Source of the DNA: Catellatospora bangladeshensis
Lineage (GTDB): Bacteria; Actinomycetota; Actinomycetes; Mycobacteriales; Micromonosporaceae
Direction: 5' to 3'
Length of the DNA: 64,000 bases
NCBI RefSeq assembly: GCF_016862575.1
Contig: NZ_BONF01000017.1
Location: forward strand, 62,001 to 126,000
Each line of letters starts with the position of its first letter. Position 1 is the first letter of the stretch. Positions 8,628 to 27,920 of the stretch are shown in pieces. The translations under genes were made by a program, and so were the position numbers. Below the pieces are notes generated by a model. That model had not been told where the DNA came from and ran no database searches. It saw only the letters and a program-made list of their open reading frames with translations.

Positions 8628-9164
8628 ATGCCGGCGCCGCGCGACCATTACGAGGTGCTGCAGATCGGGCGACGGGCCAGCACGGAGGAGATCCGGCGGG
8701 CCTACCACCGGCTTGCCCGGCGCTGGCATCCGGATGTGACCGCCGATCCGGCGGCGCACGAGGGGTTCCGGGCGGCCAATGAGGCGTATCGGGTCCTGTC
8801 GGACCCGGTCAGCCGGGCCCGCTACGACCGGTCTGTGGCCGGGCCCGCGGCACCGGACCGGGTCCGTTGGGCCGCCGCGGCTGACACCAGGCCCGGTCAC
8901 GCGCGGGACCCCGATCCACGGCGGGCGCCGGACTCGGTGGTGTACGTGACGGTGGAGCTGACGGGCCGGCAGGCGCTGGCCGGTGCCCGTCGGCTCGTCT
9001 GCTTTCGCACAGGCGACGGCGTGGTCACCTTGGAGGTCGCCGTACCGCCCGGCGTCCACGACGGGCAGCGCCTGCGCCTGACGGGCGTACCCGTCGGCGA
9101 TGGGTTCGGCAGGGAGGCTGACGTGTGGGCGATCGTCCGCGTGGTACGCGGGCTGACCTGGTGA
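8628..9164 (+). CDS. J-domain (DnaJ/CbpA-like) co-chaperone
   Basis: 178 residues from ATG 8628, chosen because GGGAGGAG lies just upstream; the frame is open further upstream. The N-terminus is a J domain (DHYEVLQIGRRASTEEIRRAYH) with the essential HPD motif in RWHPDVTADP, which stimulates DnaK ATPase. There is no Cys-rich zinc domain. The C-terminal part (VYVTVELTGRQALAG, VPPGVHDGQRLRLTGVP) matches the DnaJ/CbpA substrate-binding domain, but only one subdomain is present, so the protein is short. It is close to MerR and Hsp20 genes, suggesting a heat-shock group. Confidence 0.88.
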   Translation: MPAPRDHYEVLQIGRRASTEEIRRAYHRLARRWHPDVTADPAAHEGFRAANEAYRVLSDPVSRARYDRSVAGPAAPDRVRWAAAADTRPGHARDPDPRRAPDSVVYVTVELTGRQALAGARRLVCFRTGDGVVTLEVAVPPGVHDGQRLRLTGVPVGDGFGREADVWAIVRVVRGLTW

Positions 9165-9182
9165 AACCTGTTGCGGCGACGG

Positions 9183-9320
9183 TAGAATTGGTTCGTCGGT
9201 TGGACCAGGATCTCTGGTTGTTGACGAGGGGTGATCGTGATGGCCTTGCTGGTTCCGGCCCACTACCACCGCCGACGCGGTCCGCGTGCTCTGCGCCGCC
9301 CACCCAACCGCAAGCGGTGA
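9183..9320 (+). other. possible small transcription unit encoding a 26-residue basic peptide
   Basis: Within the 366-nt gap after the J-domain gene there is a -10-like TAGAAT (9183-9188), a ribosome site GAGGGG (9226-9231), ATG 9240 and a 26-codon frame ending at 9320. The peptide begins MALLVPAHYHRRR and is strongly basic. A perfect hairpin follows at 9341-9374. Coding status is uncertain; it could instead be the trace of an untranslated RNA. Confidence 0.3.
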
Positions 9321-9340
9321 AGACCCTTGATGGTGTCAAC

Positions 9341-9374
9341 GGCGTCGGCGCCCGGGCATCCGGGCGCCGACGCC
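9341..9374 (+). terminator. perfect 15-bp hairpin, terminator-like
   Basis: GGCGTCGGCGCCCGG (9341-9355), loop GCAT, and its exact complement (9360-9374). There is no T-run, as is common in actinomycete terminators. It ends the J-domain or small-ORF transcript. Confidence 0.65.
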
Positions 9375-9530
9375 TGTGCGCAGCGATAGGTGGGTCCATG
9401 GCTGGGCTCAAACACTGGACGCCTGGCATCTGCAGGCGCGGGCCGAAACCGATCTGGACCAGTCCCGAGGCTGAGCGCGCCGGATCGGCCGGCGCCCGGG
9501 TCCATCTCCCGTGCCAGGAGCCTTAATGCG

Positions 9531-9866
9531 TCAGGCGCCGCAGCCAGGTTCGTCCAGTCTGTGCCGCAAAACCTCGATCATCTTCTGTGCGGCGGCGAGC
9601 TGGTACTCAAGCCGGACGACGCGGACGGCGGCGTCCAGGCGCAGCCCGTCGTCGACCAGGTGCCGTGCCCGGTCGGCCCGGTGCAGATCGTCGAGGCTGT
9701 AGCGGCGGTGCCCACCGTCGGAACGGTGCGCCTCGAACAGGCCCGCCGCCTCCACCGCCCGCAGGAACGCAGGCGTCACCTTGAGCGCGTCGGCGGCGGC
9801 GCCCATGGCGAAGCCGGGGTAGTCCGCGTCGCCGATGTGCGGCGCCCGCACGCCCGCTGCGGTCAC
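9531..9866 (-). CDS. MerR-family regulator (heat-shock neighbour)
   Basis: 111 residues from GTG 9866, which has AGGAGG about 10 nt upstream; an ATG at 9914 would add 16 unlike residues. A MerR-type winged helix is visible: GAAADALKVTPAFLRAVEAAGLF then SDGGHRRYSLDDLHRA, the classic RRYS wing, followed by a coiled-coil helix (LEYQLAAAQKMIEVLRHRL) for dimerisation. No effector-binding domain follows, as in HspR-type regulators. It is encoded just downstream of and in the same direction as hsp20, so control of chaperone genes is likely. A textbook HspR inverted repeat was not found. Confidence 0.78.
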   Translation of the reverse strand: MTAAGVRAPHIGDADYPGFAMGAAADALKVTPAFLRAVEAAGLFEAHRSDGGHRRYSLDDLHRADRARHLVDDGLRLDAAVRVVRLEYQLAAAQKMIEVLRHRLDEPGCGA

Positions 9867-9979
9867 GGTGCACCACCTCCTGTCGGTCCGGCCGGTGGCA
9901 TCAGGGGATGCCACCGGCGCCTGGATGAGTCGGTTCGGCCCAGCTCACCACCCCTTTCCGGTGCGCCCACCTGGCGAGC

Positions 9980-10453
9980 TCAGGCGCTGCTGCCGATCAG
10001 GTGCTGGTCGGCGGCCTGGTCGCCCTGCTGGTCGGCCAGCGCCTTGCGGCCGGCCTCCGCACGACCGATCTCGATCTTGCGGGGCTTGGCCTGCTGGGCG
10101 ACCGGGATGCGCAGGCTCAGCACGCCGTCGGTGTACTCGGCGCTGATCGCCTCGACGTCCACGCCGTCACCGAGGACCAGCTGGCGGCTGTAGCTGCCCG
10201 TGGGGCGCTCCGACACCAGATATGTGGCGCCCTCGGGATCGTGGCGGCGCCGCTCGCCGCGCACGGTCAGGGTGTTGTTCTCCGCCGACACGTCAAGGGT
10301 GTCGGGTTCCATGCCGGGCATGTCGAACCGGACGACGAACTCCTCGCCGGTGCGCAGGCAGTCCATCGGCATCAGCGCCGGGGTTCGGGCCGCGCCGAAC
10401 ACCTCACCGGCCAGGCGGTCGAAGTCGCGGAACGGATCCCATCGCATCGCCAT
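9980..10453 (-). CDS. Hsp20/alpha-crystallin family small heat-shock protein
   Basis: 157 residues. The alpha-crystallin domain runs from about 40 to 132: EEFVVRFDMPGMEPDTLDVSAENNTLTVRGERR, and the conserved A-x-x-x-n-G-V-L motif appears as SAEYTDGVLSLRIPV. The N-terminus WDPFRDFDRLAGEVF is typical of bacterial small heat-shock proteins. It holds unfolding proteins in the cytoplasm without ATP. It is followed by the MerR gene after 113 nt and preceded by a sigma70-like promoter at 10558-10585. Confidence 0.93.
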   Translation of the reverse strand: MAMRWDPFRDFDRLAGEVFGAARTPALMPMDCLRTGEEFVVRFDMPGMEPDTLDVSAENNTLTVRGERRRHDPEGATYLVSERPTGSYSRQLVLGDGVDVEAISAEYTDGVLSLRIPVAQQAKPRKIEIGRAEAGRKALADQQGDQAADQHLIGSSA

Positions 10454-10557
10454 CGCAGCTCAGCTCCTTCCCTAGTCGTCGCTGCGTGACGGGCATCCCC
10501 GGAGGCAGCTCTTCAGAGCGCACCGCCCGGGAACACCCTGTTTCGTCTGCAACACAA

Positions 10558-10585
10558 ATTCTATCCCAACGGTTACAGATATCAA
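10558..10585 (-). promoter_or_regulatory. sigma70-like promoter of hsp20
   Basis: Read on the minus strand: TTGATA (10585-10580), a 16-nt spacer, and TAGAAT (10563-10558). The predicted leader to the hsp20 start is about 100 nt. This AT-rich patch stands out in its surroundings. Confidence 0.6.
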
Positions 10586-10688
10586 GGCTCCCCGGTGATG
10601 TTCTCGCTGGCCACAGGCGGTTTCCAGGCGACAGGATGATGTAAGACGACCGCGGTGACCGGCGGAGCGCGCCGGTCACCGCGGCTGC

Positions 10689-11207
10689 TCAGGCGACGTC
10701 GGCGCAGAGGTCGCGGGTGCTGCCTTGGATCATGTCCACGGTCTTGTACCCGTCGGCGGCGATGTCGAGGGTGTACACGCCGTCGAGGATGTACAGGCCG
10801 CGCGGCAGCGTGCCGCCGCCCGCGCGGAAGCCGGCCATCACTGGGCCGACGGCGTACCACGTCATGGACCCGTCGGCGTGGTAGTCGATCATTGTGGTGC
10901 CGCCGGCGTCGGCGCGGGTGCTCGCCCCGGTCTGGGTGTTGGTGATCTCCAGGATGAGGTCACCGGCGTACAGCTCCCGCTTGGGCCTGCCGTCGGGGTA
11001 GGTGTCCAGCACCAGCTTGCGCACCTCGTCGACGACGGGCTGGGTGTGCACGGCGAAGTCGCAGCGCGCCCCGGCGGGCAGGTCGTACGAGGCCTGCGGG
11101 GCCGGCCTCCAGGCGCCCTGTGCGGCGGAGGGTTCCGCGGCGGAGGCGGGTGTGGCGGCGGACAACGCCATGACCGACGCCACGGCGACGGTTGTCAGTC
11201 GGCGCAT
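10689..11207 (-). CDS. small secreted protein of unknown function
   Basis: 172 residues. A clear signal peptide (MRRLTTVAVASVMALSAATPASA) is followed by a mature domain of about 148 residues with two Cys (GARCDFAV and RDLCADVA), consistent with one disulfide joining the ends. It is rich in beta-strand and Gly/Tyr (MIDYHADGSMTWYAVGPV, GLYILDGVYTLDIAADGYK). No family is recognised. ATG 11207 has GAGGAG 5 nt upstream. It is divergent from the SARP-CGNR gene and shares a 22-bp upstream element with the repeat-peptide gene at 23777, so SARP control is suspected. Confidence 0.75.
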   Translation of the reverse strand: MRRLTTVAVASVMALSAATPASAAEPSAAQGAWRPAPQASYDLPAGARCDFAVHTQPVVDEVRKLVLDTYPDGRPKRELYAGDLILEITNTQTGASTRADAGGTTMIDYHADGSMTWYAVGPVMAGFRAGGGTLPRGLYILDGVYTLDIAADGYKTVDMIQGSTRDLCADVA

Positions 11208-11247
11208 GTTTGCTCCTCGGGTTCGTGTCTCGGCCTGGCCGGCCGGA

Positions 11248-11288
11248 CCGGATCAGCGTCGCGGCGGCCGTTGACCACGGGCTGACCA
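11248..11288 (-). promoter_or_regulatory. shared 22-bp promoter element plus 11-bp-period direct repeats
   Basis: Positions 11248-11269 are identical to 23818-23839 (22 of 22 bp). Both copies start exactly 41 nt upstream of a minus-strand ATG. Just upstream in the transcription sense lie TGACCA repeats (plus-strand reading) at 11272 and 11283, 11 bp apart, with a weaker third copy near 11294. Direct repeats with an 11-bp period beside the -35 region are the usual binding sites of SARP activators. Confidence 0.6.
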
Positions 11289-11428
11289 CAGACCTGATGG
11301 CGATGTCGGACAAATTGGACTGATCGCTCCTGCGACCTTCCGCTGGAGTGATCATCACCACGGCCGCTCACCGCGTCCTGACCGTGCTCGCGGCGAACCT
11401 GTCCGGCTGCCTGACGCGTGGCTTGGGT

Positions 11429-12808
11429 ATGGAGTTTCGTCTGCTCGGCCCGTTCGAGGCCGCCGCCGGTGGCACCGCCGTCGAGCTTGGCATCCGGCGT
11501 CAGGAGCGGCTGCTCCTGGCGATCCTGCTGTGCGAGGTGGGCCGGTTGGTGCCGACCGGCCGCGTCATCGAGCTGCTGTGGGGCGACCGACCCCCGGCGT
11601 CGGCGCGCAGCGCCGTGCACACCTACATCGGCCGTGTGCGCGCCGCGCTCGCCGCCTACGGCGTGCGCATCAGCACCAGCAACGACGGCTATCTGGTCTC
11701 CCCCGAAGGTCTCACCGTCGACATGCACGAGTTCGCCGCGCTGGTGCGCCGAGCCACCGAGTCGGCCGAGCCGGACGCACGGGTGGAGCTGCTCGACCAG
11801 GCGCTCGGACTCTGGCGCGGCCCGCTACTGGCCGACCTCGCCCCTGATGGACTGCGCGAGCTGCTCGGCGCGCAGCTCGACGAAACCCGCCTGCTGGCGC
11901 TGGAGATGCGGGCCGAGGCGTGGCTGCTGCTCGGCAAGCATGAACAGGTCATCGTTGAGGTCCCCGACCCGGCAGCGGCGCACCCCACGCGGGAGCGACT
12001 GGTCGGGGCCCTGATGACGGCGCTCTACCGCGACGGCCGGCAGGCCGACGCCCTGCTGCTCTACGACCGGACCCGGCGGGCGCTGGCCGAGGACCTCGGC
12101 GTGGATCCGGGCGAACAGCTCGCCGAGCTGTACCGGCGTATCCTGCAGCGCGATCCGCGGCTCGACCCGCCCCGCCGCATGGTGTACGAGGTGCGCCTGC
12201 GCGAGGAGAGTCTGCCCTGGAGCGTCGGCGGCCACCCCGCACTCGACTTCTGCAACACGTTCGCCGGATGGCGGCAGGAGCCGCCGCTGCCCGGATCGGA
12301 GTGGCTGCGCAGGTACCGCACCCTTGCCGTGTGGACTGGGTTCGCGGGACTGGCCGACGAGGCCGCCGTCAGCCGCCTGTGCGTGCTGGCCGAGCGCTGT
12401 CCCGACGAGGCGGCGGCGGTGCTCGACCAGGCGCGCCGGCTGCGCACCAACCTGTACAGCTGCCTCACCGAGACACCCGACAGGGTGACGTTCGAGCAGG
12501 TTGCCGTCCTGGCGCAGGAGGCGGCTCGGTGGCAGCTGCTCCTGCCGGCCCACGGCGACGGCGCACGCTGGCGCACCGACCTGGGCGCTGGGCTGCGACT
12601 GCCACTGCTGGCCGCAGCCTGGACCGCCGCGGGCCTGCTCACGGACCCGCGGAGGCTGGCAGTGTGCACCTGCCCGAACCCGAGCTGCGGCTGGCTGTTC
12701 CTGGACGAGACCGGCCAGCGGCGCTTCTGCAGCCTCGCCACCTGCAGCGGATCGCAAGCCCCGGACGAGCTTCGCGGGGCCGAACCGGCGGCGTTCGGCC
12801 GGCGATAA
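11429..12808 (+). CDS. SARP-type regulator fused to ABATE/CGNR zinc-finger domains
   Basis: 459 residues from ATG 11429; the frame is open 81 nt further upstream but that part is not family-like. Residues 1-95 are an OmpR-like winged helix (MEFRLLGPFEA, RQERLLLAILL, GRVIELLWGDRPP, SAVHTYIGRVRAAL), followed by a BTAD domain to about 250 (EFAALVRRATESA, ALYRDGRQADALLLYDRTRRAL, DLGVDPGEQLAELYRRIL). The rest is an ABATE-type stress-response domain (PWSVGGHPALDFCNTFAGW) and a CGNR zinc finger (CTCPNPSCGWLFLD, RRFCSLATC). Each half is a known transcription-factor type; their fusion is unusual. It is divergent from the secreted protein gene at 11207. Confidence 0.85.
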   Translation: MEFRLLGPFEAAAGGTAVELGIRRQERLLLAILLCEVGRLVPTGRVIELLWGDRPPASARSAVHTYIGRVRAALAAYGVRISTSNDGYLVSPEGLTVDMHEFAALVRRATESAEPDARVELLDQALGLWRGPLLADLAPDGLRELLGAQLDETRLLALEMRAEAWLLLGKHEQVIVEVPDPAAAHPTRERLVGALMTALYRDGRQADALLLYDRTRRALAEDLGVDPGEQLAELYRRILQRDPRLDPPRRMVYEVRLREESLPWSVGGHPALDFCNTFAGWRQEPPLPGSEWLRRYRTLAVWTGFAGLADEAAVSRLCVLAERCPDEAAAVLDQARRLRTNLYSCLTETPDRVTFEQVAVLAQEAARWQLLLPAHGDGARWRTDLGAGLRLPLLAAAWTAAGLLTDPRRLAVCTCPNPSCGWLFLDETGQRRFCSLATCSGSQAPDELRGAEPAAFGRR

Positions 12809-13134
12809 CCCGGCCTCGGGCGTGCGCGCGAACAAACCCGGCACCCGAACGGCACCGCTGACAGAGCAGGCTCGACCGGGGTGGGTGTACTGCTGTCGAT
12901 GGGCCGGATGGGCTCCTGACTCCGCTGCCGTTCGACGCGCTCGGCTACCTGGAATCCATCGAGAGCTGCCGGTCTTCCTCATGCGCCCGGAACTGTACTG
13001 TGATGGCTGCCGACCCGCTACTGCCTTCGCCGGATCATCGGTGCCGATGGGCGTTCACTCCAGTGAGCGGCAGTCGGCCGCTCGGCAGCCCAACGAGGTG
13101 GGCCGGCAACCGCCGGAGGCGACGGTAAGATAGC
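12809..13134. other. intergenic sequence without a recognisable gene
   Basis: Between the stop of the SARP-CGNR gene and the hairpin at 13135 I see no frame with convincing protein character and no promoter. Confidence 0.5.
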
Positions 13135-13168
13135 GCTGATGTCCAGCGGGCAAGCGCTGGACATCAGC
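13135..13168. terminator. perfect 14-bp hairpin between convergent genes
   Basis: GCTGATGTCCAGCG, loop GGCAAG, then the exact complement. It sits between a plus gene ending at 12808 and a minus gene ending at 13234, so it probably terminates transcription from both sides, mainly the minus-strand gene. Confidence 0.65.
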
Positions 13169-13233
13169 AATCAATCGTGTTGGACAACTGCGGTCTCATC
13201 CCGAGGATGAACCGTTCCGATTCGGCGCACCTG

Positions 13234-14073
13234 TCAGCGGAAGGCGTCGATGTTGCGCGTGGCCCAGGCGGCGAAGGGGCGCGGTGGCCGGCCCAGGACC
13301 TCGGCGATGTCTGGGCTTATCCGCTGCTCGGCCTCTGTTGGCGTACCGAGAATCGCCAGTGTGCCCTCGACCACCGGTGGCGGCATGAACCGCAGCATCT
13401 GTTCGCGGGCTTCGTCGGGCGTCTGCTCCACGAAGCCGATCGGCTCGCCGAGGGCGGCGGCGAGATCGGCGACCCGTTCGCGGGGCGTACTCAGTGCCGG
13501 GCCGGTCAATTCGTAGGTGCGGCCATCGTGCGAGCCGTCACGCAGGGCCACGGCTGCTACTTCGGCGATGTCGTCGGGGTCGACCACGGGCAGGCCGACG
13601 TCGCCGAACGGTGCGGCCACCCTCCGCTCCCCTCGTACCGGTTCAGCCCAGGCGAAGGCGTTGGAGGCGAAGCCGCCGGGGCGCAGGACGGTCCAGCCGA
13701 GGGTGGATCGGCGTACGAGGTCCTCGATGGTGCGTAAGGGCGCGTGCGACGCGGACTCCGGCCGGGTCGCGACCGCTTGCGAGGACTGCAACACGATGCG
13801 CTTCACGCCTGCGGTTGCGGCAATCCGCAGGATTTCGGGCATGTCCAGGTGGGCCCCGGCGCCTTCCACGAGCAGATACAGCGCTTCGGCACCGGCGAGC
13901 GCCGGGCGCAGGGTCTCGGGCTGCTCGAGGTCTGCGCGATGGTGGCGAACCTCGGGTGGTAACGCGAGGGGGCGTAGTCCCCGGGACACCGCCGTCACCG
14001 CAGCGCCCGACGCGGCGAGAATCGACGAGAGGGTACGGCCGACGTTTCCGGTGGCTCCTACCACGACGAACAT
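13234..14073 (-). CDS. NmrA/QOR2-like NAD(P)H-binding oxidoreductase
   Basis: 279 residues starting at ATG 14073 (MFVVVGATGNVGRTL); the open frame extends upstream into non-homologous sequence. The glycine-rich GATGNVG near the N-terminus is the Rossmann dinucleotide site of atypical short-chain dehydrogenases. KRIVLQSSQAVA, TVLRPGGFASNAF and TYELTGPALST follow the NmrA/quinone-reductase-2 pattern. It probably reduces quinones or senses NADP(H). It is divergent from an HxlR regulator, the usual arrangement of redox-sensing regulator and quinone reductase. Confidence 0.82.
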   Translation of the reverse strand: MFVVVGATGNVGRTLSSILAASGAAVTAVSRGLRPLALPPEVRHHRADLEQPETLRPALAGAEALYLLVEGAGAHLDMPEILRIAATAGVKRIVLQSSQAVATRPESASHAPLRTIEDLVRRSTLGWTVLRPGGFASNAFAWAEPVRGERRVAAPFGDVGLPVVDPDDIAEVAAVALRDGSHDGRTYELTGPALSTPRERVADLAAALGEPIGFVEQTPDEAREQMLRFMPPPVVEGTLAILGTPTEAEQRISPDIAEVLGRPPRPFAAWATRNIDAFR

Positions 14074-14140
14074 GTCTGTGTCTCCAGTTCCGACCGCGTC
14101 GTTCGCGCGGTTGGAGAGAACGCTAGTAGCGCCGGTATAG

Positions 14141-14150
14141 TAGGTACCTA
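14141..14150. promoter_or_regulatory. palindrome TAGGTACCTA, candidate HxlR operator
   Basis: A perfect 10-bp palindrome in the AT-rich 109-bp space between the divergent NmrA and HxlR genes, flanked by ATAGTA on both sides (direct repeats near 14137 and 14155). HxlR/DUF24 regulators usually bind such sites to control themselves and the divergent gene. Confidence 0.5.
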
Positions 14151-14182
14151 GAGGATAGTAATGTGTTTGTGACGGAGGGCAC

Positions 14183-14569
14183 ATGAAACAGTCGACGGAT
14201 CCCGAGCTGGCATGTCCGGTCGCTCCGGTCGTCGACATCGTGTTCAGCCGGTGGACCACACCCATCCTGTGGGCCCTTCACGAGTACGGTCGTCAACGCT
14301 TCGTGGAGCTGGAGCGCCGGCTGACCAGCATCACCCCGAAGGTGCTCACACAGCGGCTGCGCCAGCTGGAACGCGACGGGCTCATAGCGCGCACCTACCA
14401 CGCCGAGGTGCCCCCGCGAGTCGAGTACGAGATCACCGAGTTGGGCGCCAGCCTCGGCCCGATCTTCGCCCACCTCACCGCCTGGGCCGACGCCAGCCTC
14501 CCGGAGGTGGAACGGGCACGACGCACCTACGACCATGGCGCTTCCCGGCCTGCGTCGGGTGGCGCGTGA
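14183..14569 (+). CDS. HxlR-family (DUF24) regulator
   Basis: 128 residues. The family pattern is clear: CPVAPVVDIVFSRWTTPILWALHEYGRQRFVELERRL, then ITPKVLTQRLRQLERDGLIAR and VEYEITELGASL, a winged helix that acts as a dimer. The N-terminal Cys11 is where many members carry the redox-sensing Cys. GGAGGG lies a few bases before ATG 14183. It most likely senses quinone or electrophile stress and represses the divergent NmrA-like gene (inference from arrangement). Confidence 0.9.
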   Translation: MKQSTDPELACPVAPVVDIVFSRWTTPILWALHEYGRQRFVELERRLTSITPKVLTQRLRQLERDGLIARTYHAEVPPRVEYEITELGASLGPIFAHLTAWADASLPEVERARRTYDHGASRPASGGA

Positions 14570-14634
14570 CTGCCGGCCGCGGTGATCCGCGCGGGTTCGC
14601 ACTGCGGAGCGCTCACGTGTCGGTGCCTGTAACA

Positions 14635-14667
14635 GCGGCTGGGGACCGCCGGTGGTGCCCCAGCCGC
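14635..14667. terminator. 10-bp hairpin between convergent genes
   Basis: GCGGCTGGGG, a 13-nt loop, then CCCCAGCCGC. It lies between the HxlR stop (14569) and the minus-strand stop at 14682 and can serve both. Confidence 0.6.
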
Positions 14668-14681
14668 GGTCTTCGCTTCCG

Positions 14682-17072
14682 TCATGGGGCGCGCAGGTAG
14701 CTGGCGACGAAACCGCCATCGGCCAGCGTGCCCGCGTTGCCGTGGCAGTAGACGTCGACGGTCAGCTTCGGAGGCGCGCTGTAGGAGTTGATCGCGCCCA
14801 GGTGGCAGTAGCGGTCGTCGTCACCGTACGCCGTCAGCTGCACGCTGTCGCCGAACTTGCCGAGCGAGGTCCATGTCAGCCGGTACCAGCCGGTGTTGAG
14901 CCGGGACACCGACGGGGTCTCTCCGTCGCTGCTGTACGAACGCGCTGCGTCGACGTGCGGGGCGGCGCCGCCGGATACCAGGGTGTAAGCCGACGGCGCG
15001 GACCCGTCCCGGTGCGGCCCTGCCCGGTCGGTGTAGGTGAGCAGGAACCCGCTGTCCCGGGCGGTGGCGGCACCGGTGGTGACGGCCTGGCAGGCCACCG
15101 ACACCGTCAGCGCGTCCCCGGCGGAAGCGGTCCCCGCGACACGGCAGCGGGCTGCGGCGGTGCCGAAGGTGGTCAGCATCATCCCGCCCGTTCCCGCCGC
15201 GAAATCACGGCCGGGCAGCTGCACCTGGTATCGGCCGGTGCCGGTACGGGTGACGGAGTTCGTCCCGCCGGCCGAGTTGGCGGTGCCCGCCGCGCGGATG
15301 CCCGCCGCGCTGTAGGCGACCGTCGCGTACGGCTGCGTGCCCCCGGCCGCCGCGGCGACGAACACCGTGAACCACCAGTCGATCGGTGCCCCGGTGTGGT
15401 CGAAACAACGCACGTCGACGAGTTCGTCGGTGCCGGATCTCCGGTAGTCGGCGACGGCGCAGACGCGCCCCCGGTAGACGGTGCGGTACGCGGTGACGTG
15501 CGTGACTGCCCGCTCGGCTCCGAGTCCGGGCAGCCGTACCTGATAGCGGCCGGTACCGGTGTGGGTCACCAGGGCCTGCTGGCCCGTGGTGGCCGGGTAG
15601 TCGGCAGCGGTGCTCCACTGGGTGTTCAGGTTCAGCGGCGTCGCGGTCCCGATGGGTGCTTCCGCCTCGGTCGCCTTGTCGACGTACACGTATCCCCAGT
15701 TTGGGCTGCCCTGCAGGACCTGGCCCGCGGACGCGCCGCCCGTTCCCGCGCTGCCGGGGTCGGCGCCTGTCGGAACCGGGGAGGCCGGCGCCGAGGGTGC
15801 GGGGCCGGGCGCGCCCGGACCGCCGGAGGAAGGCGGCGAGGTCGGCACGGCAGGCGCCGCGGTGCCGGGTGCCGTCACCGCGGTCGCGGACGGGCGCGGG
15901 TCGGGCGAAGCAGCCGGACCGCCGGTTCCGGTGAAGACCACCGCCGCCACCGAAACCGCCACTACGACCGCCGTGCCGCCGGCCGCCGCCGGGTTGCCCA
16001 AAACCGCGTCGGCCAGCCGCCCGAGGGACGGGTTGCCGGCCAGCGCGGTCAAGATGCGACCGCCCAGGCCGCCGACCGGCGACGGCGGGCGGGGCGCCGC
16101 GACGATGTCTGCGGGCGCGACGACGGTGGCCGGAGCCGGGGCGGTCGCGGGCGTGTCACGAGACACCGCGACTGCGGCAGCCGCCCGCTCGTCGCTCTCC
16201 TCGCGCCCCCAGGCGGCCAGCGCAGCCGGCATCGCCAGAATGGGGATCACCAGGAAGTCCTTGGCCAGCCCCACCTTGCGGCTGTGGGCGTACTGCTGTC
16301 GGCAGACGTCGCATCCCTTGAGGTGGCGGCGGGTGCGCTGGTACACCTGCGGCGTGAACCCGGCCGGGTCGCGCCGGTTCCACTCGCCGGCCGCGCACGG
16401 GCGGGTGCGGGCCAGGTGGAGGGTGAGCAGGTGCTCGGTAACCCGGATGCGGGCGTCGTACAGCACGCGGTCGAAGCGGTGCGCCGCGACACCGCTGGCC
16501 TCGATCAGCTGCCGCCGGGGCAGATCCTGGGTGTAGGCCAGCAGGACCAGCTCGTAGTCATCCTTGATGTGGTGGGTAGCCTGCCGCAGCCAGCTGCCGA
16601 GCTCCCAGCTTCCAGCCAGTTCCTCCACGGTCGGCTGCGGCCGGTCGGCGAGGTCGAGATCGGCCGGATCGGCCGGGGCCGCCCGGACCCGCTTACGCAG
16701 GTGGTGCGCGACGTCACGGCGGGCTGCGGTGTAGACGTAGCGGTAGAACGACCGCGCGCCGTGCCGCAGGACCAGGCCCGCGCTCGCGTGCACGGCGCAC
16801 ACCCGGTCGAGCAGGTCGCGGGTCAGGTCGACCGCATCGTGCTCGTCGTCGACCCGCAGCGCGAAGTAGTGGTGCAGCCGCGCCAGCTCGGCACGGCACA
16901 GGGCCTGCATCGCGGCGTCGGCATCGGCCCCGCCCGCGGTCACCATCGCGACGAGCCGGTCGCCGGCCTGCTCGCGCAGGGCATGGTCGCGCCCGCCCGC
17001 GGCGGCCTCCAGCTGGGCTAGGGACACCACCGAGACATCGACGGGAGATGCGCCCCGATCCACGGTGCTCAC
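14682..17072 (-). CDS. ECF-sigma-like/ZAS-like transmembrane fusion with repeat ectodomain
   Basis: 796 residues with an unusual order. Residues 40-215 resemble an ECF sigma factor (ALRVDDEHDAVDLTRDLLDRVCAV, SFYRYVYTAARRDVAHHLRKR for region 2; LVLLAYTQDLPRRQLIEASGV for region 4). Then H250-x3-C254-x2-C257, the zinc motif of ZAS anti-sigma factors. One membrane helix lies at about 364-381, followed by a Pro/Ser/Gly-rich stalk to about 450. An ectodomain of about 330 residues in three Cys-containing modules completes it (each with HTGTGRYQVRLPG-type and TAYRTVYRGRVCAVADY-type strands). The ectodomain is homologous to the end of the protease at 17744-21220. Cell-surface sensing feeding a tethered sigma factor is inferred. 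A minimal sigma function is not proven. Confidence 0.75.
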   Translation of the reverse strand: MSTVDRGASPVDVSVVSLAQLEAAAGGRDHALREQAGDRLVAMVTAGGADADAAMQALCRAELARLHHYFALRVDDEHDAVDLTRDLLDRVCAVHASAGLVLRHGARSFYRYVYTAARRDVAHHLRKRVRAAPADPADLDLADRPQPTVEELAGSWELGSWLRQATHHIKDDYELVLLAYTQDLPRRQLIEASGVAAHRFDRVLYDARIRVTEHLLTLHLARTRPCAAGEWNRRDPAGFTPQVYQRTRRHLKGCDVCRQQYAHSRKVGLAKDFLVIPILAMPAALAAWGREESDERAAAAVAVSRDTPATAPAPATVVAPADIVAAPRPPSPVGGLGGRILTALAGNPSLGRLADAVLGNPAAAGGTAVVVAVSVAAVVFTGTGGPAASPDPRPSATAVTAPGTAAPAVPTSPPSSGGPGAPGPAPSAPASPVPTGADPGSAGTGGASAGQVLQGSPNWGYVYVDKATEAEAPIGTATPLNLNTQWSTAADYPATTGQQALVTHTGTGRYQVRLPGLGAERAVTHVTAYRTVYRGRVCAVADYRRSGTDELVDVRCFDHTGAPIDWWFTVFVAAAAGGTQPYATVAYSAAGIRAAGTANSAGGTNSVTRTGTGRYQVQLPGRDFAAGTGGMMLTTFGTAAARCRVAGTASAGDALTVSVACQAVTTGAATARDSGFLLTYTDRAGPHRDGSAPSAYTLVSGGAAPHVDAARSYSSDGETPSVSRLNTGWYRLTWTSLGKFGDSVQLTAYGDDDRYCHLGAINSYSAPPKLTVDVYCHGNAGTLADGGFVASYLRAP

Positions 17073-17208
17073 GAGTGCCTCCTATTCGGACCGCGCCGCC
17101 TGAGGTGAATGTTAGGGGCCGTCGCCACGGCGCGGTGGGCTCGCGCAGCGGCCGCCGGAGCCAGGCGAGGGCTGCCCGCCACCGGCGTGGCGGGCAGGCA
17201 AACAGCCG

Positions 17209-17529
17209 TCACGGGCGCGCTCCCGCTCGGTCGGCGGCCGCCGGGCAGCCGGCCGGCTGGTGCTCGGCCGCCAGCCAGCACTGCCACCACCGGCTGAAGT
17301 CCGTGTCGGACGGTGCCAGGGGTATGGCGTACCGCTCGGCGTGGGCGAGGCAAGCGCTGACGAAGAAGTGCACGAACTGCCAGGCGACGGCCTTGCGCCG
17401 CCCGTTGAGGGTGTCGGCTATGGTGCTGGCGGCGTAGGTCCGCCGCCCGGCGGCGGCCAACTGCCGGTATGAGGGTGCGCCGGCGCGGAGGCGCAGCCGG
17501 TGCAACTGCGCCGGCAAGGTTTCCTGCAC
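17209..17529 (-). CDS. small helix-turn-helix-like protein
   Basis: 106 residues from GTG 17529 with AGGAG 9 nt upstream. It reads QETLPAQLHRLRLRAGAPSY, then STIADTLNGRRKAVAWQFVH and a Trp-rich end. The N-terminal half has the pattern of the short XRE-like domains common in actinomycetes (L-x-x-L-R-x-x-A-G-x-P-S-Y, then STIADTLNG). No enzymatic domain follows. It lies directly upstream of the sigma-like fusion gene, on the same strand with a 136-nt gap, and may regulate it or the divergent protease gene (inference). Confidence 0.65.
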   Translation of the reverse strand: MQETLPAQLHRLRLRAGAPSYRQLAAAGRRTYAASTIADTLNGRRKAVAWQFVHFFVSACLAHAERYAIPLAPSDTDFSRWWQCWLAAEHQPAGCPAAADRAGARP

Positions 17530-17743
17530 TGCATCGCTCCTGTTCTGACGGGGTCCGTGCCTACAGAGGCGGCAGGTCGCGAAAACTCCGGCCGCACCAG
17601 AAAAAATCTTGAAAATCTTCGGCGCCCGGCCGTGTTCGGTTGTGTTCCGCATCGCCACCAGTGCGTTCCGCGCGGTGGCGGCGTGCGCCGGTGCCCCGCT
17701 GCACTGGAGCGGTCGATCCCCCCACCCCTACGGGAGGCAGGAA

Positions 17744-21373: not shown

Positions 21374-21382
21374 GGGGCGGGG

Positions 21383-21677: not shown

Positions 21678-22790
21678 TCAAACCCCTGACCCGAGAAGCG
21701 GAATGTCCGAGCCATCCGGGCAGGCCGGGACGCGGAGCCGCCGGCGGTTGTCCGCGGCGGCCGCCAGCGCCGGATGCCTGCCGTCCACGGTCGCGGCGAG
21801 GATGCGGTACGCCCGCTCGGCCAGCACACACGCCTCGGACGTAGCACCGCGGTCGGCGACGACGACGGCCAGGTTGTGCAGCGTCAGCGCGGTGTCCGGA
21901 TGCTCTGCCCCGAGTGACGCCCGCTTGCCCGCCAGCGCCGCGCGGTAGAGCACCTCGGCCTCGGCCAGGTCCCCCAGCGCGGCCCGCACCGAGGCGAGGT
22001 TGTGCAGGTTGACGGCCACCTCGTGGTGCTCGGCTCCGTGCCGGTGCGTGAAGTATGCGATCGCGTGCCGCAGCAGCGGTTCCGCCTCGCCGTGCCGGCC
22101 CTGGGCGTGCAGCAGTGCGGCCAGGTGTGCCTCGTCGGCGACGATCGCCGGGTGTCCGGCGGGATGACCGGCGCGGTGCAGGGCGAGCGACCGCCGTGCC
22201 CACCGCTCCCCCGCCGCGAACTCGCCGCGGCTGTGTGCCAGTCCGGCCAGGTTGTGGCAGAGGGCCGCCAGCCGGGGATCATCCGGGCCGTGCGCCGCCT
22301 CCAGGGCGCTGAAGGCGAGCGCGTAGGCGGCCTCGGCGTCGTCGAGGCGCCCGGCGAACTTGGCCAGCATGCCCAGCTCGTTCCAGACCGGCACCCGGTC
22401 CAGATCTGAGGACGCCCGCTCCGCAAGGGCCAGCGCCTGGCGGAGGGCACCCTCGGCTTCGCGGTACCGGCCCTGGCGGCGCAGGCAGCCGCCGAACGCC
22501 GTGGCCGCCTCGATGTGCAGGCGCAGCAGCTCGCCCTCGGCGGGCAGCGCGGCCAGGACCGCCACCGCCCGCCGGTGGTGCGCCTCGGCGATCACGTGCG
22601 CGCCGGCCTCGTCGTATGCCGACGCCAGCAGCGTCAGCACGTTGGCCACGTCGGGATGACCCGTGCCGGAGTGCTCCTCGAACAGCTCCAGGGCTCGCCG
22701 GCACAGGTCGACCGTCCGCGGGTGGCGGTGCGCGTCGCGTTCCCGCAGCGCCTCGTCGTGCAGCAGCACCGCGTACGCGATCGGGTCCAT
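21678..22790 (-). CDS. tetratricopeptide-repeat protein
   Basis: 370 residues made almost entirely of about 42-residue TPR units of the Kinesin-light-chain/NphP3 type. Examples are HPDVANVLTLLASAYDEAGA, DDPRLAALCHNLAGLAHSRG, HPAIVADEAHLAALLHAQGR, HHEVAVNLHNLASVRAALGD and HPDTALTLHNLAVVVADRGA. It is a protein-binding scaffold with no enzymatic motif. It is the last gene of a unit (23777 to 21678): repeat peptide, membrane protein, TPR protein; the gap to the membrane protein gene is 1 nt. A role in binding the peptide or a regulator is inferred. Confidence 0.88.
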   Translation of the reverse strand: MDPIAYAVLLHDEALRERDAHRHPRTVDLCRRALELFEEHSGTGHPDVANVLTLLASAYDEAGAHVIAEAHHRRAVAVLAALPAEGELLRLHIEAATAFGGCLRRQGRYREAEGALRQALALAERASSDLDRVPVWNELGMLAKFAGRLDDAEAAYALAFSALEAAHGPDDPRLAALCHNLAGLAHSRGEFAAGERWARRSLALHRAGHPAGHPAIVADEAHLAALLHAQGRHGEAEPLLRHAIAYFTHRHGAEHHEVAVNLHNLASVRAALGDLAEAEVLYRAALAGKRASLGAEHPDTALTLHNLAVVVADRGATSEACVLAERAYRILAATVDGRHPALAAAADNRRRLRVPACPDGSDIPLLGSGV

Positions 22791-22791: not shown

Positions 22792-23457
22792 TCAGGCGGC
22801 CCGCGCCGCGGCGGGCGGACGCATCGCGGTCAGCGCCGTGGCCAGGTGGGCCAGCGACACCACGACCGTCGCCGGGATGATCCACAGGCCTTCGGCCCCG
22901 GGCAGCCCCGGGAAGACGACCATGACCACGACCGCGGCGGCCAGGGCGCCACCGGCCGCTCGCACGCCGCGCCGGTCGCCGCGCCAGATCAGGCCGATGC
23001 CGTAGACCAGGGTGGCCAGCAGCCAGGCGAACCCGAGCACGGCGTTGACGGCCTGCCCCGGCCCGGCTTCGACCTGCTCGCGCACGCCACCGGGCATCGG
23101 TGCGATGAACGCCTCGAACCAGGCCCCGGGGCCGAACCCGGCGAAGGCGACCGCGGTCACCAAGGCCGACGCCGTCACCATCCAGTGGGGACGCACGAAG
23201 CCGCCTACGGCGACGAGCATCGGCAGGCCGGCCGCGACCAGCATCCCGCCGAGGGCGAAGGTGAGGTGTGCCGCCTCCCAGGTCGGCGACGCGTACGCGG
23301 CGGTGTCGTGCCGCAGCGGGTGCATCACGTTGCCGGCCGCGAACAGGACGGCTCCGATGCCGACCAGGTACGCGGCCAGGCGGCGCGTGCCGAGCGTGTT
23401 CGTCTCTATCCTGGCGTGCTCGCTGGTGCCGGTCGCGGTGGTGAGGGTGTCGTTCAT
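22792..23457 (-). CDS. polytopic membrane protein, unknown function
   Basis: 221 residues with about six hydrophobic helices (LAAYLVGIGAVLFAAGNVM, LTFALGGMLVAAGLPMLVAV, VTASALVTAVAFAGFGP, AVNAVLGFAWLLATLVYGIG, AALAAAVVVMVVFPGLPG, TVVVSLAHLATALTAM). No transport or catalytic motif is recognised. It is co-directional with the repeat peptide gene upstream (62-nt gap) and nearly overlaps the TPR gene downstream, so the three probably form one operon. Confidence 0.8.
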   Translation of the reverse strand: MNDTLTTATGTSEHARIETNTLGTRRLAAYLVGIGAVLFAAGNVMHPLRHDTAAYASPTWEAAHLTFALGGMLVAAGLPMLVAVGGFVRPHWMVTASALVTAVAFAGFGPGAWFEAFIAPMPGGVREQVEAGPGQAVNAVLGFAWLLATLVYGIGLIWRGDRRGVRAAGGALAAAVVVMVVFPGLPGAEGLWIIPATVVVSLAHLATALTAMRPPAAARAA

Positions 23458-23519: not shown

Positions 23520-23777
23520 TCAGCTCTGGCGGGCGATCGGCTGGCTGTGGTTCAGGTGCGAGCCGCCGGCGTTCAGCCGGGTGCGCAGGGCCACCGCCTG
23601 GCTGTGGTTGGTCGCCAACCCGCCCGCTCCGGCCTGGCTGCGCGCCGCCGTGGTGTGGGAGGTGGCGACGCCGTCCTCGGCCTGGCCGGCCGGACGCGCG
23701 GTGACCGCCGCGCTGTGGTTGATGGTGAGCCCGCCCGCGCGGACGCGGGTCCGCATCGACTGGTCATGGTTACGCAT
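23520..23777 (-). CDS. Asn-His repeat peptide (AGGxxxNHS repeats)
   Basis: 85 residues from ATG 23777 with GAGGAG 6 nt upstream. It consists of five imperfect units 17-20 residues long. The (N/S)H pair recurs at 3-4, 20-21, 40-41, 57-58 and 76-77, mostly preceded by A-G-G-x-x-x, as in RAGGLTINHS, GAGGLATNHS and NAGGSHLNHS. There is no Cys, signal peptide or membrane helix. Such repeats suggest a multi-copy peptide precursor or a repeat metal- or ligand-binding peptide; I cannot decide which. Its promoter carries SARP-type repeats and the 22-bp element shared with the gene at 11207. Confidence 0.75.
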   Translation of the reverse strand: MRNHDQSMRTRVRAGGLTINHSAAVTARPAGQAEDGVATSHTTAARSQAGAGGLATNHSQAVALRTRLNAGGSHLNHSQPIARQS

Positions 23778-23817: not shown

Positions 23818-23902
23818 CCGGATCAGCGTCGCGGCGGCCACTTGGCGGGGACTTGGGATCGGCTTGTGCCGCACCTGACGAGCCCGCCAAGTCGTCGCCA
23901 AG
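23818..23902. promoter_or_regulatory. divergent promoter with SARP-type 11-bp repeats on both strands
   Basis: On the plus strand CTTG occurs at 23841, 23852 and 23863 (heptamers CTTGGCG, CTTGGGA, CTTGTGC), exactly 11 bp apart. In inverted orientation CCAAG occurs at 23887 and 23898, again 11 bp apart. The 22-bp block 23818-23839 next to the first array is identical to 11248-11269. SARP activators bind direct heptamer repeats of 11-bp period, and a SARP gene lies at 24612-27920. The arrays sit between the repeat-peptide gene and the hemerythrin gene. Confidence 0.65.
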
Positions 23903-23958
23903 CCGGCGGCGTCACGGTGGCGGCGACATCGGCATGCCGAACAGCGAGGAGAGCGACC

Positions 23959-24624
23959 GTGCCTGCGGCCCCTATCGAGCGTCCCCAGCTGCTGGGCTTC
24001 CGCCTGGCCCACCGCACGATGCGCGGCGACGCGCGGCGCCTGGCCGATCTCGCCGGGCGTATCGGTGCCGGGGTCGTCGTCTGCGACCGGCGCCGGGCGG
24101 CTGCCCTGGCCGAATACGTGTGCCGCGTCTGCGACGGCGTGCACCACCATCACGACGTCGAGGACCGTCACCTGTGGCCGGTGCTCGACCGCGCCGCCGG
24201 GGCCGAGGTCGACCTCGCCGAGCTGAGCGACGACCACCGCGCGCTGGAGCCGCTGCTGGACCAGGTCCGCGCGGCGGTCACCGCGTTCGCCGCGGCGCCG
24301 TCCGACCGCGTGGCCGCACGGCGGCTCGCGCAGGGGCTCGAAGGCCTGCGGGACCTGCTGGACGAGCACATCGAGGAGGAGGAGCGCACGGTCCTGCCGC
24401 TGGTGGAGCGGTACGTGTCGGCGGCGGACTGGCGGCGCGTCGAGGCGGCTGCACGCCGGGCGGGCGATCCGTGGTTCGACCTGCCGCGCATCGAGCGGTT
24501 CGCGGCGCCGGACGAGCTGGCGGAGCTGCACGCCCTGGCGGGACCGGTGCTGCGGGTGGCGCTGCTGTTGCTGCGCCCCGGCCACCGCCGCCGCGAGCGG
24601 CTCATCTTCGGTCAGCGCAGGTGA
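23959..24624 (+). CDS. hemerythrin (HHE) domain protein
   Basis: 221 residues from GTG 23959 (GAGGAGA upstream). The four-helix HHE pattern is seen as HHHHDVEDRHLWPVL, SDDHRALEPLLDQ and LDEHIEEEERTVLPLVE, giving the His/Glu ligands of a di-iron site (H-HxxxE type). Such proteins bind O2 or NO or sense redox. The C-terminal 50 residues are extra. Its 3' end overlaps the convergent SARP gene by 13 nt, and it is divergent from the repeat-peptide operon. Confidence 0.83.
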   Translation: MPAAPIERPQLLGFRLAHRTMRGDARRLADLAGRIGAGVVVCDRRRAAALAEYVCRVCDGVHHHHDVEDRHLWPVLDRAAGAEVDLAELSDDHRALEPLLDQVRAAVTAFAAAPSDRVAARRLAQGLEGLRDLLDEHIEEEERTVLPLVERYVSAADWRRVEAAARRAGDPWFDLPRIERFAAPDELAELHALAGPVLRVALLLLRPGHRRRERLIFGQRR

Positions 24625-27600
24625 AGGCCTGCTTGCGCCCGGTCGGCCCAGTGCCCGCTGCCGAGGCTTTCGGCGAGCTGTGCGGCGTCGCGGTAGTGGC
24701 GGGCGGCGTCGTCGTCGCGGCCGGCGAGCCGTGCCAGGCCGGCCAGCGCGAGGTCGACCGGCCCGGCGGCCAGAGATCCGCTGGACAGCCCGGCCACCCG
24801 GCCCGCCCAGGGCAGCAGCGCGTCGTAGCAGGCCGCGGCGGTCGCGTGGTCCTGCAGCAGGACCGCGTTGTCCGCGCGCACCGCCATGAACAGCAGCCAG
24901 TAGTACCCGGCGCCGATCTCCAGCGACGGCCGCCAGACCGTGCGGGCCTCGTCGGCGCGGCCTGCGGCGGCCAGCGCGCGGACGAGCATCTCGTTGATCT
25001 CCGCCGTCGGCAGCACCGCATGGAAGCCGTGCAGGGCGTCCGCGGACTCGTGGGCGCGGCCGGCGGCGAGCCGGACGAAGAACTGGCCGAGTATCGCGAA
25101 CGCGTGCGCGCTGACGCCGCCGTGCCGGCCGATCTCGGCGGCCAGTTCGGTGTAGCGGCGCTCGGCCTCGTCGAACCGTCCCGCCACGAGCGCGCGCAGC
25201 GCGTCGAACATGTGCAGGATGGCCAGGGTGAGGCCGAGCTGCCCGGTCGTGGAGTGCTCCACCGCCCGGTCCACGTGTGCCCTGGCCGCGTCGAGGTCGT
25301 TGCGGCCGAGCTGGGCCAGGCACAGGACGTGGTGTGCCTGTGCCTGGAAGCCCAGGAGCCCGGCGGCGGAGCTCACCGCGAGCAACTCCTCGCCCAGCGC
25401 CTCGATCTCGTGGTTGCGCTGCGGCGCGAGCGCGGCGAAGTAGCGGGCGTTGAGGGCCAGGCACAGCAGGTGCGCGTCGCCGGAGGCCCGGGCCAGTTGC
25501 AGCGCCTGGGCGCTGGCCGATTCGGCCCGGTCCTGGTCCATTCCCTCGACCTCGAAGACAAGGGTGGTCAGCAGCCGGCAGCGGACCTCGTCGACACCGG
25601 GCGGCAGCAGCGCGAGCGCCGCCTCGACCTCGTCGACCACGGGCCGGTCGAGCACCCCGTTCTCGCGTACGGTCCAGGTCACGGGTGCGTCGAAGGCGCC
25701 CAGTGCGCGTGCCGTGGCCACCGGGTCCCCGACCGCGCGGGCCGCGGCGACGGCGCGCAGGCGGGTCTGCCGCGCCGCCGCGACGGCACCGGCGTGCGCC
25801 TGCGCCGACACCAGTTCGCACAGCAGGTCCAGGCGCGCCGCCGGATCGTCGTCGCGGGCGGCGTCGAGGACGTCGAGCGCCCGGGTCAGCAGTGACGCGG
25901 CCTCCCGGTAGGCGTAGAGGCGTCCGGCGTGGCGGGCGGCCGTGGTGGCGTAGCCGACCGCCGACCGGGCGCCCTCGGGCCCGGCGGCGAGGGCGTGCCG
26001 GGCCAGGGCCGCGACGTCGGCGGGGCGGGTCCGTTCCAGGGCCGCCAGCACCCGCGCGTGCAGGCGGGTACGCCGCAGCAGCGGCGTGTCCTGGTACAGC
26101 GTGTCGAGGACCAGCGCGTGGGCGAAGCGCACCCGGCCGGGTGAGGGTTCGACGAGCAGCCCAGTGAGGACCGCGGCCTCCAGCCCGTCCAGGACGGTGT
26201 CCTCGTCGGCACCCTCGGCCGCCAGCAGCAGGTCGACGTCGACGTCGCGGCCCACGACGGCGGCGTTGCGCAGCACGGTCTGGGCTTTGGCGGGCAGCCG
26301 GGCGATGCGACGGCGCAGCACGCTGCGCACCCCGGCCGGGACCGCGTCGGCCGCGGCCGCGGGTCCTTCGGCCGCGATCAGGCGCGCGGTCTCCTGGACG
26401 AACAGCGGGTTGCCGCCGGTGCGCTCGGCCAGCTGCCGTGCCGCGCCGTCGTCGAGGTCGACGCCGCTGTGGCGGCGCAGCAGTGCGACGCCGTCGGCCG
26501 GGCTCAGCCCCGCCAGCTCGATCGTCTCCGCGCGCGGACCGGCCAGCGCCGCCCACGTCGGTCCCAGGTGGTCGGAGACCTCGGTCGAGCGGTAGGCGGC
26601 CAGCATCAGGACCGGCGACGCGGTCAGCTGCCCGGCGACCTGGCGCAGGATCTGCAGCGTCTCCTCGTCGGCGCGGTGCACGTCGTCGAGCACGACCAGC
26701 AGCGGACCGTCTGCGGCCACCTCGGCCAGGTACTGCCCGACGGCGTGGGCCAGCCAGAACTGGCCTGCCGCGGCAGGTTCCCCGTCGGGCCGGCGGCCGG
26801 GGTCCAGCAGCGGCGACAGCGACGCGGCCAGGCTGTCGGCGGGCGGCCGGGCCTGCGCCAGCGACCGCAGCACCTGGCTCCACGCCCACGCGGCGGGGGC
26901 GCCGTCGACCTCGGGGCAGCGGCCGACGGCGCTACGCCATCCGGTCTCCGCGCCGAACGCCTCGGCCAGGGCGCTCTTGCCCGCGCCGGGTTCACCGCCG
27001 ATCCACACCACCTGGAAGCCGCCGCCCCGCGCCCGGACGGCCGCGTCGGCCAGCCGGGCCAGCTCCGCTGAGCGTCCCACCAGGCGTTCGGGCTCAGCCT
27101 GGCGTGCCGGCCGGTTCACCGGCTTCGCCCGGCGCGCCACGCCGGACGCGGCCGTGTCGAGGTGCGCGGCCTGCCGCAGCACGTCGGCCTCCAGGGCGCG
27201 CAGCGCCGGCCCCGGGTCGACGCCCAGCTCGTCGGCCAGCCGCTCGCGCGCTCGCCGCAGCACGGCCAGCGCGTCGGCCTGCCGCCCCGACCGGTAGAGG
27301 GCCAGCGCCAGCAGCCGCACCGCCTCCTCCCGCAGCGGATGGGCGCGCACGTGCCGGTCCAGGTCCGGCACGACCCGCATCGCCTGGCCGAGGCGCAGCA
27401 CGGCATCGGCCCGGTACTCCACGGCGACCGCGCGCAGCTCCTCCATCCGCGCCGCCTCGGGCTGGGCCCACCGCTCGTCGGCGACCTCCGCGTACGCCGG
27501 GCCGCGCCACAGTGCCAGCGCGGTGTCGACCAGAGATTCCACGCGTACCGGATCGTCCTGGGCGTGCGCGTCGGCCGCGCTCGCGACGAGGTCCTCGAAC

Positions 27601-27920
27601 CGCCACGCGTCCACATCGGATCGTGACAGCCGAAGCGCGTAGCCAGGCGAGGCGCTTACCAGCACCCCGGCGGGGGTGCGTGCGGCGCGGGCGGGTTCGA
27701 GCACGCGCCGCAGGTTGGAGACGTAGGCCTGCAGCGAGCCCAGGGCCTTGGGCGGTGGCTCGCCCTCCCACAGGTCGTCGAGGAAGCGGTCGGCCGACAC
27801 GACCTCACCCGCGGCACCGACCAGGCGGGCCAGCACCGCCCGCTGTCGTGGCGCGCCCGCGTCCACCGGCTGGTCCGCGACCCACACCTGCAGCGGGCCC
27901 AGGACGTTCACCCGCACCAT
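24612..27920 (-). CDS. large SARP-family regulator with AAA ATPase and TPR-like domains
   Basis: 1102 residues. An OmpR-like DNA-binding domain (1-95: VNVLGPLQVWVADQPVDAGA, RFLDDLWEGEPPPKALGSLQ) is followed by BTAD (about 100-250: WRFEDLVASAADA, YRSGRQADALAVLRRARERL). The ATPase domain has Walker A GGEPGAGKSALAEAF and Walker B PLLVVLDDVHRADEET. The last 450 residues are helical TPR-like repeats. This is the AfsR/large-SARP architecture, an ATP-dependent activator often of secondary-metabolite or morphological genes. The nearest candidate targets are the repeats at 23841-23902. Confidence 0.92.
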   Translation of the reverse strand: MVRVNVLGPLQVWVADQPVDAGAPRQRAVLARLVGAAGEVVSADRFLDDLWEGEPPPKALGSLQAYVSNLRRVLEPARAARTPAGVLVSASPGYALRLSRSDVDAWRFEDLVASAADAHAQDDPVRVESLVDTALALWRGPAYAEVADERWAQPEAARMEELRAVAVEYRADAVLRLGQAMRVVPDLDRHVRAHPLREEAVRLLALALYRSGRQADALAVLRRARERLADELGVDPGPALRALEADVLRQAAHLDTAASGVARRAKPVNRPARQAEPERLVGRSAELARLADAAVRARGGGFQVVWIGGEPGAGKSALAEAFGAETGWRSAVGRCPEVDGAPAAWAWSQVLRSLAQARPPADSLAASLSPLLDPGRRPDGEPAAAGQFWLAHAVGQYLAEVAADGPLLVVLDDVHRADEETLQILRQVAGQLTASPVLMLAAYRSTEVSDHLGPTWAALAGPRAETIELAGLSPADGVALLRRHSGVDLDDGAARQLAERTGGNPLFVQETARLIAAEGPAAAADAVPAGVRSVLRRRIARLPAKAQTVLRNAAVVGRDVDVDLLLAAEGADEDTVLDGLEAAVLTGLLVEPSPGRVRFAHALVLDTLYQDTPLLRRTRLHARVLAALERTRPADVAALARHALAAGPEGARSAVGYATTAARHAGRLYAYREAASLLTRALDVLDAARDDDPAARLDLLCELVSAQAHAGAVAAARQTRLRAVAAARAVGDPVATARALGAFDAPVTWTVRENGVLDRPVVDEVEAALALLPPGVDEVRCRLLTTLVFEVEGMDQDRAESASAQALQLARASGDAHLLCLALNARYFAALAPQRNHEIEALGEELLAVSSAAGLLGFQAQAHHVLCLAQLGRNDLDAARAHVDRAVEHSTTGQLGLTLAILHMFDALRALVAGRFDEAERRYTELAAEIGRHGGVSAHAFAILGQFFVRLAAGRAHESADALHGFHAVLPTAEINEMLVRALAAAGRADEARTVWRPSLEIGAGYYWLLFMAVRADNAVLLQDHATAAACYDALLPWAGRVAGLSSGSLAAGPVDLALAGLARLAGRDDDAARHYRDAAQLAESLGSGHWADRAQAGLHLR

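Follow-up and report, generated by a model that had tools for sequence, protein, structure and literature searches.

Two Minus-Strand Genes Share an Identical Upstream 22-mer

The window, by which we mean the whole 64,000-nt stretch of Catellatospora bangladeshensis DNA analyzed here, contains two minus-strand genes that are preceded by the same 22-bp element, CCGGATCAGCGTCGCGGCGGCC (Table 1). One gene encodes a small secreted protein and is divergent from SARP1, which codes for a SARP-family regulator. The other encodes an Asn-His repeat peptide with repeated AGG-x3-NHS motifs and is the first gene of a presumed operon. Its putative operator and that of a divergent hemerythrin-domain protein gene lie in the same intergenic region on opposite strands.

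Table 1. Coordinates of genes and predicted promoter elements at the two loci
Feature	Coordinates	Strand	Remark
Small secreted protein gene	10689..11207	-	172 aa; N terminus signal-peptide-like by eye; no Pfam match
20-bp repeat, copy 1; start of predicted 5' UTR of secreted gene	11229..11248	-	
22-mer, copy 1; predicted -21 to +1 core	11248..11269	-	Predicted start site near 11248
Predicted -10 hexamer GACGCT, copy 1	11255..11260	-	NANNNT at same offset in 31/31 loci used
Putative SARP1-type operator GTGGTCA N4 GTGGTCA	11272..11289	-	Recurs in orthologs
SARP1 gene; fusion of SARP domain, ABATE and CGNR zinc finger	11432..12808	+	AfsR match E 1.8e-37
TPR protein gene; third in presumed peptide operon	21678..22790	-	
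Membrane-type protein gene (by sequence); second in presumed operon	22792..23457	-	No Pfam match
Asn-His repeat peptide gene	23520..23777	-	85 aa; no Pfam or NCBIfam family
20-bp repeat, copy 2; inside peptide coding sequence	23676..23695	-	
22-mer, copy 2; predicted -21 to +1 core of peptide operon promoter	23818..23839	-	
Predicted -10 hexamer GACGCT, copy 2	23825..23830	-	10 bp below last CAAG heptad
Putative SARP2-type operator GCACAAG N4 TCCCAAG N4 CGCCAAG	23841..23869	-	Weaker than hemerythrin-side pair
Putative SARP2-type operator CGCCAAG N4 CGCCAAG of divergent hemerythrin gene	23885..23902	+	
Predicted -10 CACGGT of hemerythrin gene	23913..23918	+	10 bp after CGCCAAG pair
Hemerythrin-domain protein gene	23959..24624	+	PF01814 E 5e-20
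SARP2 gene; SARP, AAA_16 ATPase and TPR	24612..27920	-	1102 aa

As an earlier sequence-only reading of this DNA had claimed, both copies of the 22-mer are exact when read directly, and the A of each ATG (at 11207 and 23777) is 41 nt from the start of its copy. The repeats with an 11-bp period that it had described upstream of both copies are equally plain: a TGACCAC pair (11272-11278 and 11283-11289) flanks copy 1, and a CTTG triple (at 23841, 23852, and 23863) flanks copy 2, with a spacing of 11 bp in each case. Its statement that a SARP gene sits beside each of the two genes stands for the secreted-protein gene, which SARP1 adjoins, but not for the peptide gene, since SARP2 is one gene away with the hemerythrin gene between.

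The element is rare. Under an order-5 Markov model, 64 kb of sequence should contain 0.008 direct repeats of 22 bp (120 simulations produced one pair), and the 20-base core of the 22-mer, with up to three mismatches allowed, has two matches in the window versus 0.13 expected. The many scattered copies that would have marked it as a plain repeat did not appear: a 21-mer of the element is exact only at these two sites in the 8.83-Mb genome. Near copies of the 21-mer comprise three more sites with two mismatches and 26 with three, and a reversed control pattern gave two sites in all; no exact copy was found in the 10 congeners searched. Among the 29 near-match sites with up to three mismatches, two (L139 and L144) equal the heptad identity of the peptide promoter itself (6/7), and neither has a Shine-Dalgarno sequence plus start in the 50 bases downstream. 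We also examined 30 of 33 sites matching a 13-mer consensus. An 11-bp repeat, a Shine-Dalgarno sequence, and a start occurred together only at the two window sites, where the repeat scores are 8/11 and 6/11; one other site (L181) has a repeat (7/11) without a start, and three (L161, L169, and L172) have the start motif without the repeat. In DNA this GC-rich, the open-frame lengths around the near-match and 13-mer sites cannot be taken as a sign of coding.

On the minus strand, both regions read in the same order: heptads spaced by 11 bp, a gap of 10-11 bp, GACGCT, GATCCGG, a 40-nt stretch with GAGGAG, and the ATG. If the -10 hexamer occupies positions -12 to -7, the 22-mer would extend from -21 to +1, and the 5' UTR would correspond to the 41 nt before the ATG. 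We infer the start sites, -10 positions, and 5' UTR lengths of both promoters from this arrangement. Direct repeats at 11-bp spacing and a nearby SARP-family gene, which serve as criteria for a SARP promoter, are present in both cases (PF03704 is found in SARP1 as well as SARP2). By architecture and by their common register, the two promoters would both be of the SARP type, in keeping with the single promoter class that had been proposed for them.

The Predicted Secreted-Protein Promoter Is Conserved together with SARP1

Among 300 genomes of the family, 86 encode a homolog of the secreted protein, its own genome included (E 1e-15). To delineate the promoter, the best-scoring 34 loci were fetched and 31 were used, after exclusion of two distant paralogs (L046 and L047) and one fragment (L044). 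All 31 loci have GTGGTSA-type heptads 11 bp apart, followed by exactly 11 bp and then NANNNT, and the hexamer played no part in choosing the promoter site. The hexamers are mostly GA(C/T)(C/G)CT or CAGGCT, and a GRTCCGG-like sequence comes after them. A SARP1 homolog (58-100% over 421-439 aa) lies on the opposite strand beside the secreted gene in 31/31 loci, which are not independent because they were drawn from four genera, most of them from two. The distant paralogs have no GTGGTSA operator (9 of 14), no close SARP1 homolog, and other neighbors.

Column counts were taken from 25 rows, and a core matrix was built from 29 ortholog promoters, with the promoter's own copy and its nearest copy excluded. 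Under this matrix, the 22-mer core scores 14.4 bits, tied second among all window positions; just 5 of the 29 training promoters score lower, and one unrelated window position scores higher (18.8 bits), so the core score alone proves little. The score resides in the right (downstream) 13 nt (14.5 bits); the left 9 nt (-0.1 bits) are outside the ortholog consensus, yet identical in both window copies. The exact pair GTGGTSA-N4-GTGGTSA occurs once in the genome, at the secreted-gene operator. Allowing one mismatch added 14 genome sites, versus 4 for the control, and none of the 14 has both NANNNT at N11 and a start.

The secreted gene and SARP1 (10645-12857) align at 95.8% with a 90-kb region of another genome (G007) around its homolog; the rest of the window has one other match to that region, of 319 bp at 69%. 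Since the pair is the only closely aligning part of the window, it behaves like a two-gene cassette. No paper with both whole words SARP and CGNR was found in the open-access PMC literature.

The Hemerythrin Gene Recurs beside SARP2 Homologs

Hemerythrin homologs were found in 33 of 300 family genomes, and we examined the best 30 loci among these matches. Counting its own locus, 29 of the 30 have a SARP2 homolog no more than 1.5 kb from hemerythrin. The exception is genome G008, in which the hemerythrin homolog (L151) has no SARP2 homolog in 20 kb and a SARP2 homolog elsewhere (L069) is without hemerythrin. CAAG/TTAAG-type repeats recur upstream of the hemerythrin genes that adjoin SARP2 homologs. 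With the register picked on heptads alone, and with a heptad consensus that was set after the sequences were seen, NANNNT is found 10 bp downstream of the third and last heptad in 17/30 hemerythrin loci, versus about 0.6 expected from base composition. NANNNT is missing at N10 in the other 13, eight of which keep the final T; this count of misses includes L091, L094, and L099, where by eye another register would fit. In 7/30 loci, the triple-heptad score is matched by at least 16% of shuffles, and L101 and L102 show no operator. These SARP2-type promoters use hexamers other than GACGCT, often CACGGT. Some of the hemerythrin orthologs look leaderless (L088 and L126).

In its own genome, the exact pair CRCCAAG-N4-CRCCAAG occurs once, on the hemerythrin side, and the pair with one mismatch at 7 sites versus 22 for the control. 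These counts do not prove single targets because a search for CRCCAAG pairs passes over more degenerate sites, the peptide's own operator among them. The pairing of SARP and hemerythrin, recurrent across genera, is one of the two apparent local SARP switches given here. We found no paper in the open-access PMC literature with both whole words SARP and hemerythrin, and the one paper with both in a looser search there is about a blood substitute.

The register of the peptide operator in Table 1 is a direct reading, and the heptad-scoring script chose another register there. The peptide was found in its own genome only (1 of 101 genomes searched). A wider peptide family was considered and rejected. 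Weak matches (E 4e-4 to 0.009) occur in 16 other genomes among 394, and the 17 loci fetched for them contain no open frame with two NH[NSDQ] motifs. Membership in the FxSxx-COOH peptide system was rejected as well: the TPR protein scores 92 bits versus a cutoff of 300 for FxSxx_TPR, and the peptide ends in PIARQS, without an FxSxx C terminus. Homologs of the membrane protein adjoin SARP2 homologs in three Nocardia loci, one of which also has hemerythrin; the promoters of these Nocardia membrane genes have CGCAAG-type repeats upstream and no clear -10 at N10.

A Second Exact Repeat Points to DNA Copying

An exact-repeat scan of the window revealed a second exact repeat, of 20 bp, common to the same two loci (11229-11248 and 23676-23695), which the earlier reading had overlooked. 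The 20-mer abuts the 22-mer at the secreted gene; at the peptide locus, the two are 122 bp apart, with order and orientation kept. They are the only direct repeats of at least 20 bp within positions 1-58700. Elsewhere in the window, direct repeats at multiples of 156 bp occupy 58774-59530, inside an open frame of 567 aa. A pair of 20-bp words has a probability of 1e-10 per position pair, and so of roughly 1.6e-5 at 200 bp or less from the 22-mer pair, and none of 3138 random region pairs had a shared word of 17 or more. Because the 20-mer is very unlikely by chance and has no evident promoter role in the coding sequence, the 22-bp identity is best explained by DNA copying.

The contiguous 20-mer/22-mer block is also present in G007, partly diverged (34/42 identical versus 36/40 and 35/40 in the neighboring bins, a slight excess of differences). 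Since the block is contiguous and partly diverged there, we took the secreted gene as the donor. Both the direction and the mechanism of copying are presumed, and the 122-bp split of the block would call for a second event, either an insertion or a template switch.

Two Local SARP Switches May Explain the Two Promoters

We think it probable, though well short of certain, that these are two SARP-dependent promoters belonging to separate SARP1 and SARP2 switches, with a 22-bp identity that derives from a copied block of ~41 bp. Both 22-mers would be -21 to +1 cores, and a SARP dimer on the 11-bp direct repeats just upstream would place RNA polymerase on the weak -10 GACGCT; we infer SARP binding at both operators from their sequence. 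SARP1 would act on the divergent secreted-protein gene via the GTGGTCA heptads, and SARP2 on the Asn-His peptide operon and the divergent hemerythrin gene via the CAAG heptads. The block (11229-11269), which comprises the core and leader of the secreted gene, would have been copied into the peptide locus, where its halves now stand 122 bp apart, and the peptide operon would combine a SARP1-type core with an operator of the SARP2 type. The simplest reading of these sequences would be two local switches, each under a different regulator, rather than one regulon.

The earlier suggestion that the 22-mer marks one physiological programme is not supported. The heptads differ (GTGGTCA versus the CAAG type), in other genera each kind is associated with a different SARP homolog, and the identity is better explained by a copied block that includes a 20-mer without an evident promoter role at the peptide locus. 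The two genes may still have a shared physiology.

Might the same 22 bases have arisen with no copying, by selection on a -10 and discriminator with GC-rich filler around them? The right 13 nt do match the consensus of the secreted-gene promoters, and two draws from the core matrix would agree at all 22 positions with a probability of 10^-5.3 per pair, which is not negligible if SARP promoters are many (the genome has 31 SARP2-like matches). Convergence, however, leaves unexplained the abutting 20-mer, which is in coding sequence at the peptide locus, as well as the left 9 nt, which agree in both copies although they are off the ortholog consensus, and it is at odds with the other hexamers, often CACGGT, of the SARP2-type hemerythrin promoters. 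We consider it unlikely, albeit the most serious competitor of copying. A single regulon, in which a third factor that is neither SARP binds the 22-mer and co-regulates both genes, would account for the same sequence at the same distance from the ATG and for there being only two exact genome sites. Yet the 22-mer overlaps the predicted -10 and start region, an exact copy is absent from all 10 congeners searched, and the nearest copy, in G007, differs at 4 of 22 positions without gaps while the GTGGTCA heptads are identical, all of which makes such a factor very improbable. A shared regulon acting through a common operator was likewise rejected, as the exact GTGGTSA and CRCCAAG pairs are found once each in the genome.

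We give the least credence to a small, scattered mobile or repeat element that came to lie at two promoters by chance. The block is present in two copies, and the secreted/SARP1 pair forms an isolated 2.2-kb match to the 90-kb G007 stretch, so that the region may be accessory. Against this, there are no further exact copies of the 21-mer genome-wide, no Rfam match in 9000-29000, and no tandem array at 23400-24000, and the copy is in register below a SARP-type operator. An RNA element was considered separately and dismissed; at E 0.5, Rfam gave no match across 9000-29000. RNA folding z-scores are modest for the two leaders (-2.27 and -2.38), and the part of the peptide gene that holds the 20-mer gave -1.10.

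Going beyond two SARP switches and a copied block, we tentatively suggest, with rather less confidence, a capture of a promoter core: a possibly young peptide gene may have been wired into the SARP2 switch by a 41-bp core-plus-leader block copied from the SARP1-controlled promoter, with the 20-bp leader half left inside the coding sequence. If so, SARP operators and cores would be exchangeable modules shuffled by short-patch copying. The possible gain of a promoter core by one gene, via a few dozen bases copied from another, is here concrete enough to be tested.

Relation to Known SARP Promoters

The closest parallels are the AfsR/afsS promoter (the afs box of Streptomyces coelicolor) and the operators of PimR. 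As described in PMC10936776, the afsS promoter has 11-bp direct repeats centered near -29.5, a SARP activator, and a weak -10 of the form NANNNT (CACTGT), all of which resemble the arrangement predicted here. The same paper gives SARP repeats as 11 bp apart and 8 bp from the -10. In the two window promoters, the distance from heptad to predicted -10 is 10-11 bp in a frame drawn from conservation and becomes 8 bp only with a shifted 7-bp frame (GTCAACG and CCAAGTG). SARP1 matches AfsR (Table 1), and so do the first 101 aa of SARP2 (E 6.7e-15). Unlike in the AfsR/afsS system, the heptads are different, and the presumed targets here are a secreted protein, a repeat peptide, and a hemerythrin rather than afsS.

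PimR, a SARP-LAL regulator, binds three CGGCAAG heptads with 4-bp spacers at pimM, according to PMC5930380, and three heptads with 4-bp spacers are likewise found here and in the SanG/PolR operators. The PimR consensus CGGCAAG is one base off the best SARP2-type heptad, CGCCAAG; TTAAG heptads also occur at operators of the SARP2 type. SARP2 has a SARP domain and then an ATPase region, with AAA_16 and TPR matches, which may correspond to the SARP domain and LAL ATPase half of the PimR type. The main PimR operator is upstream of the -35, whereas the repeats here end 10 bp above the predicted -10. Taken by their sequence features, both window promoters are probable new members of the known SARP class of promoters.
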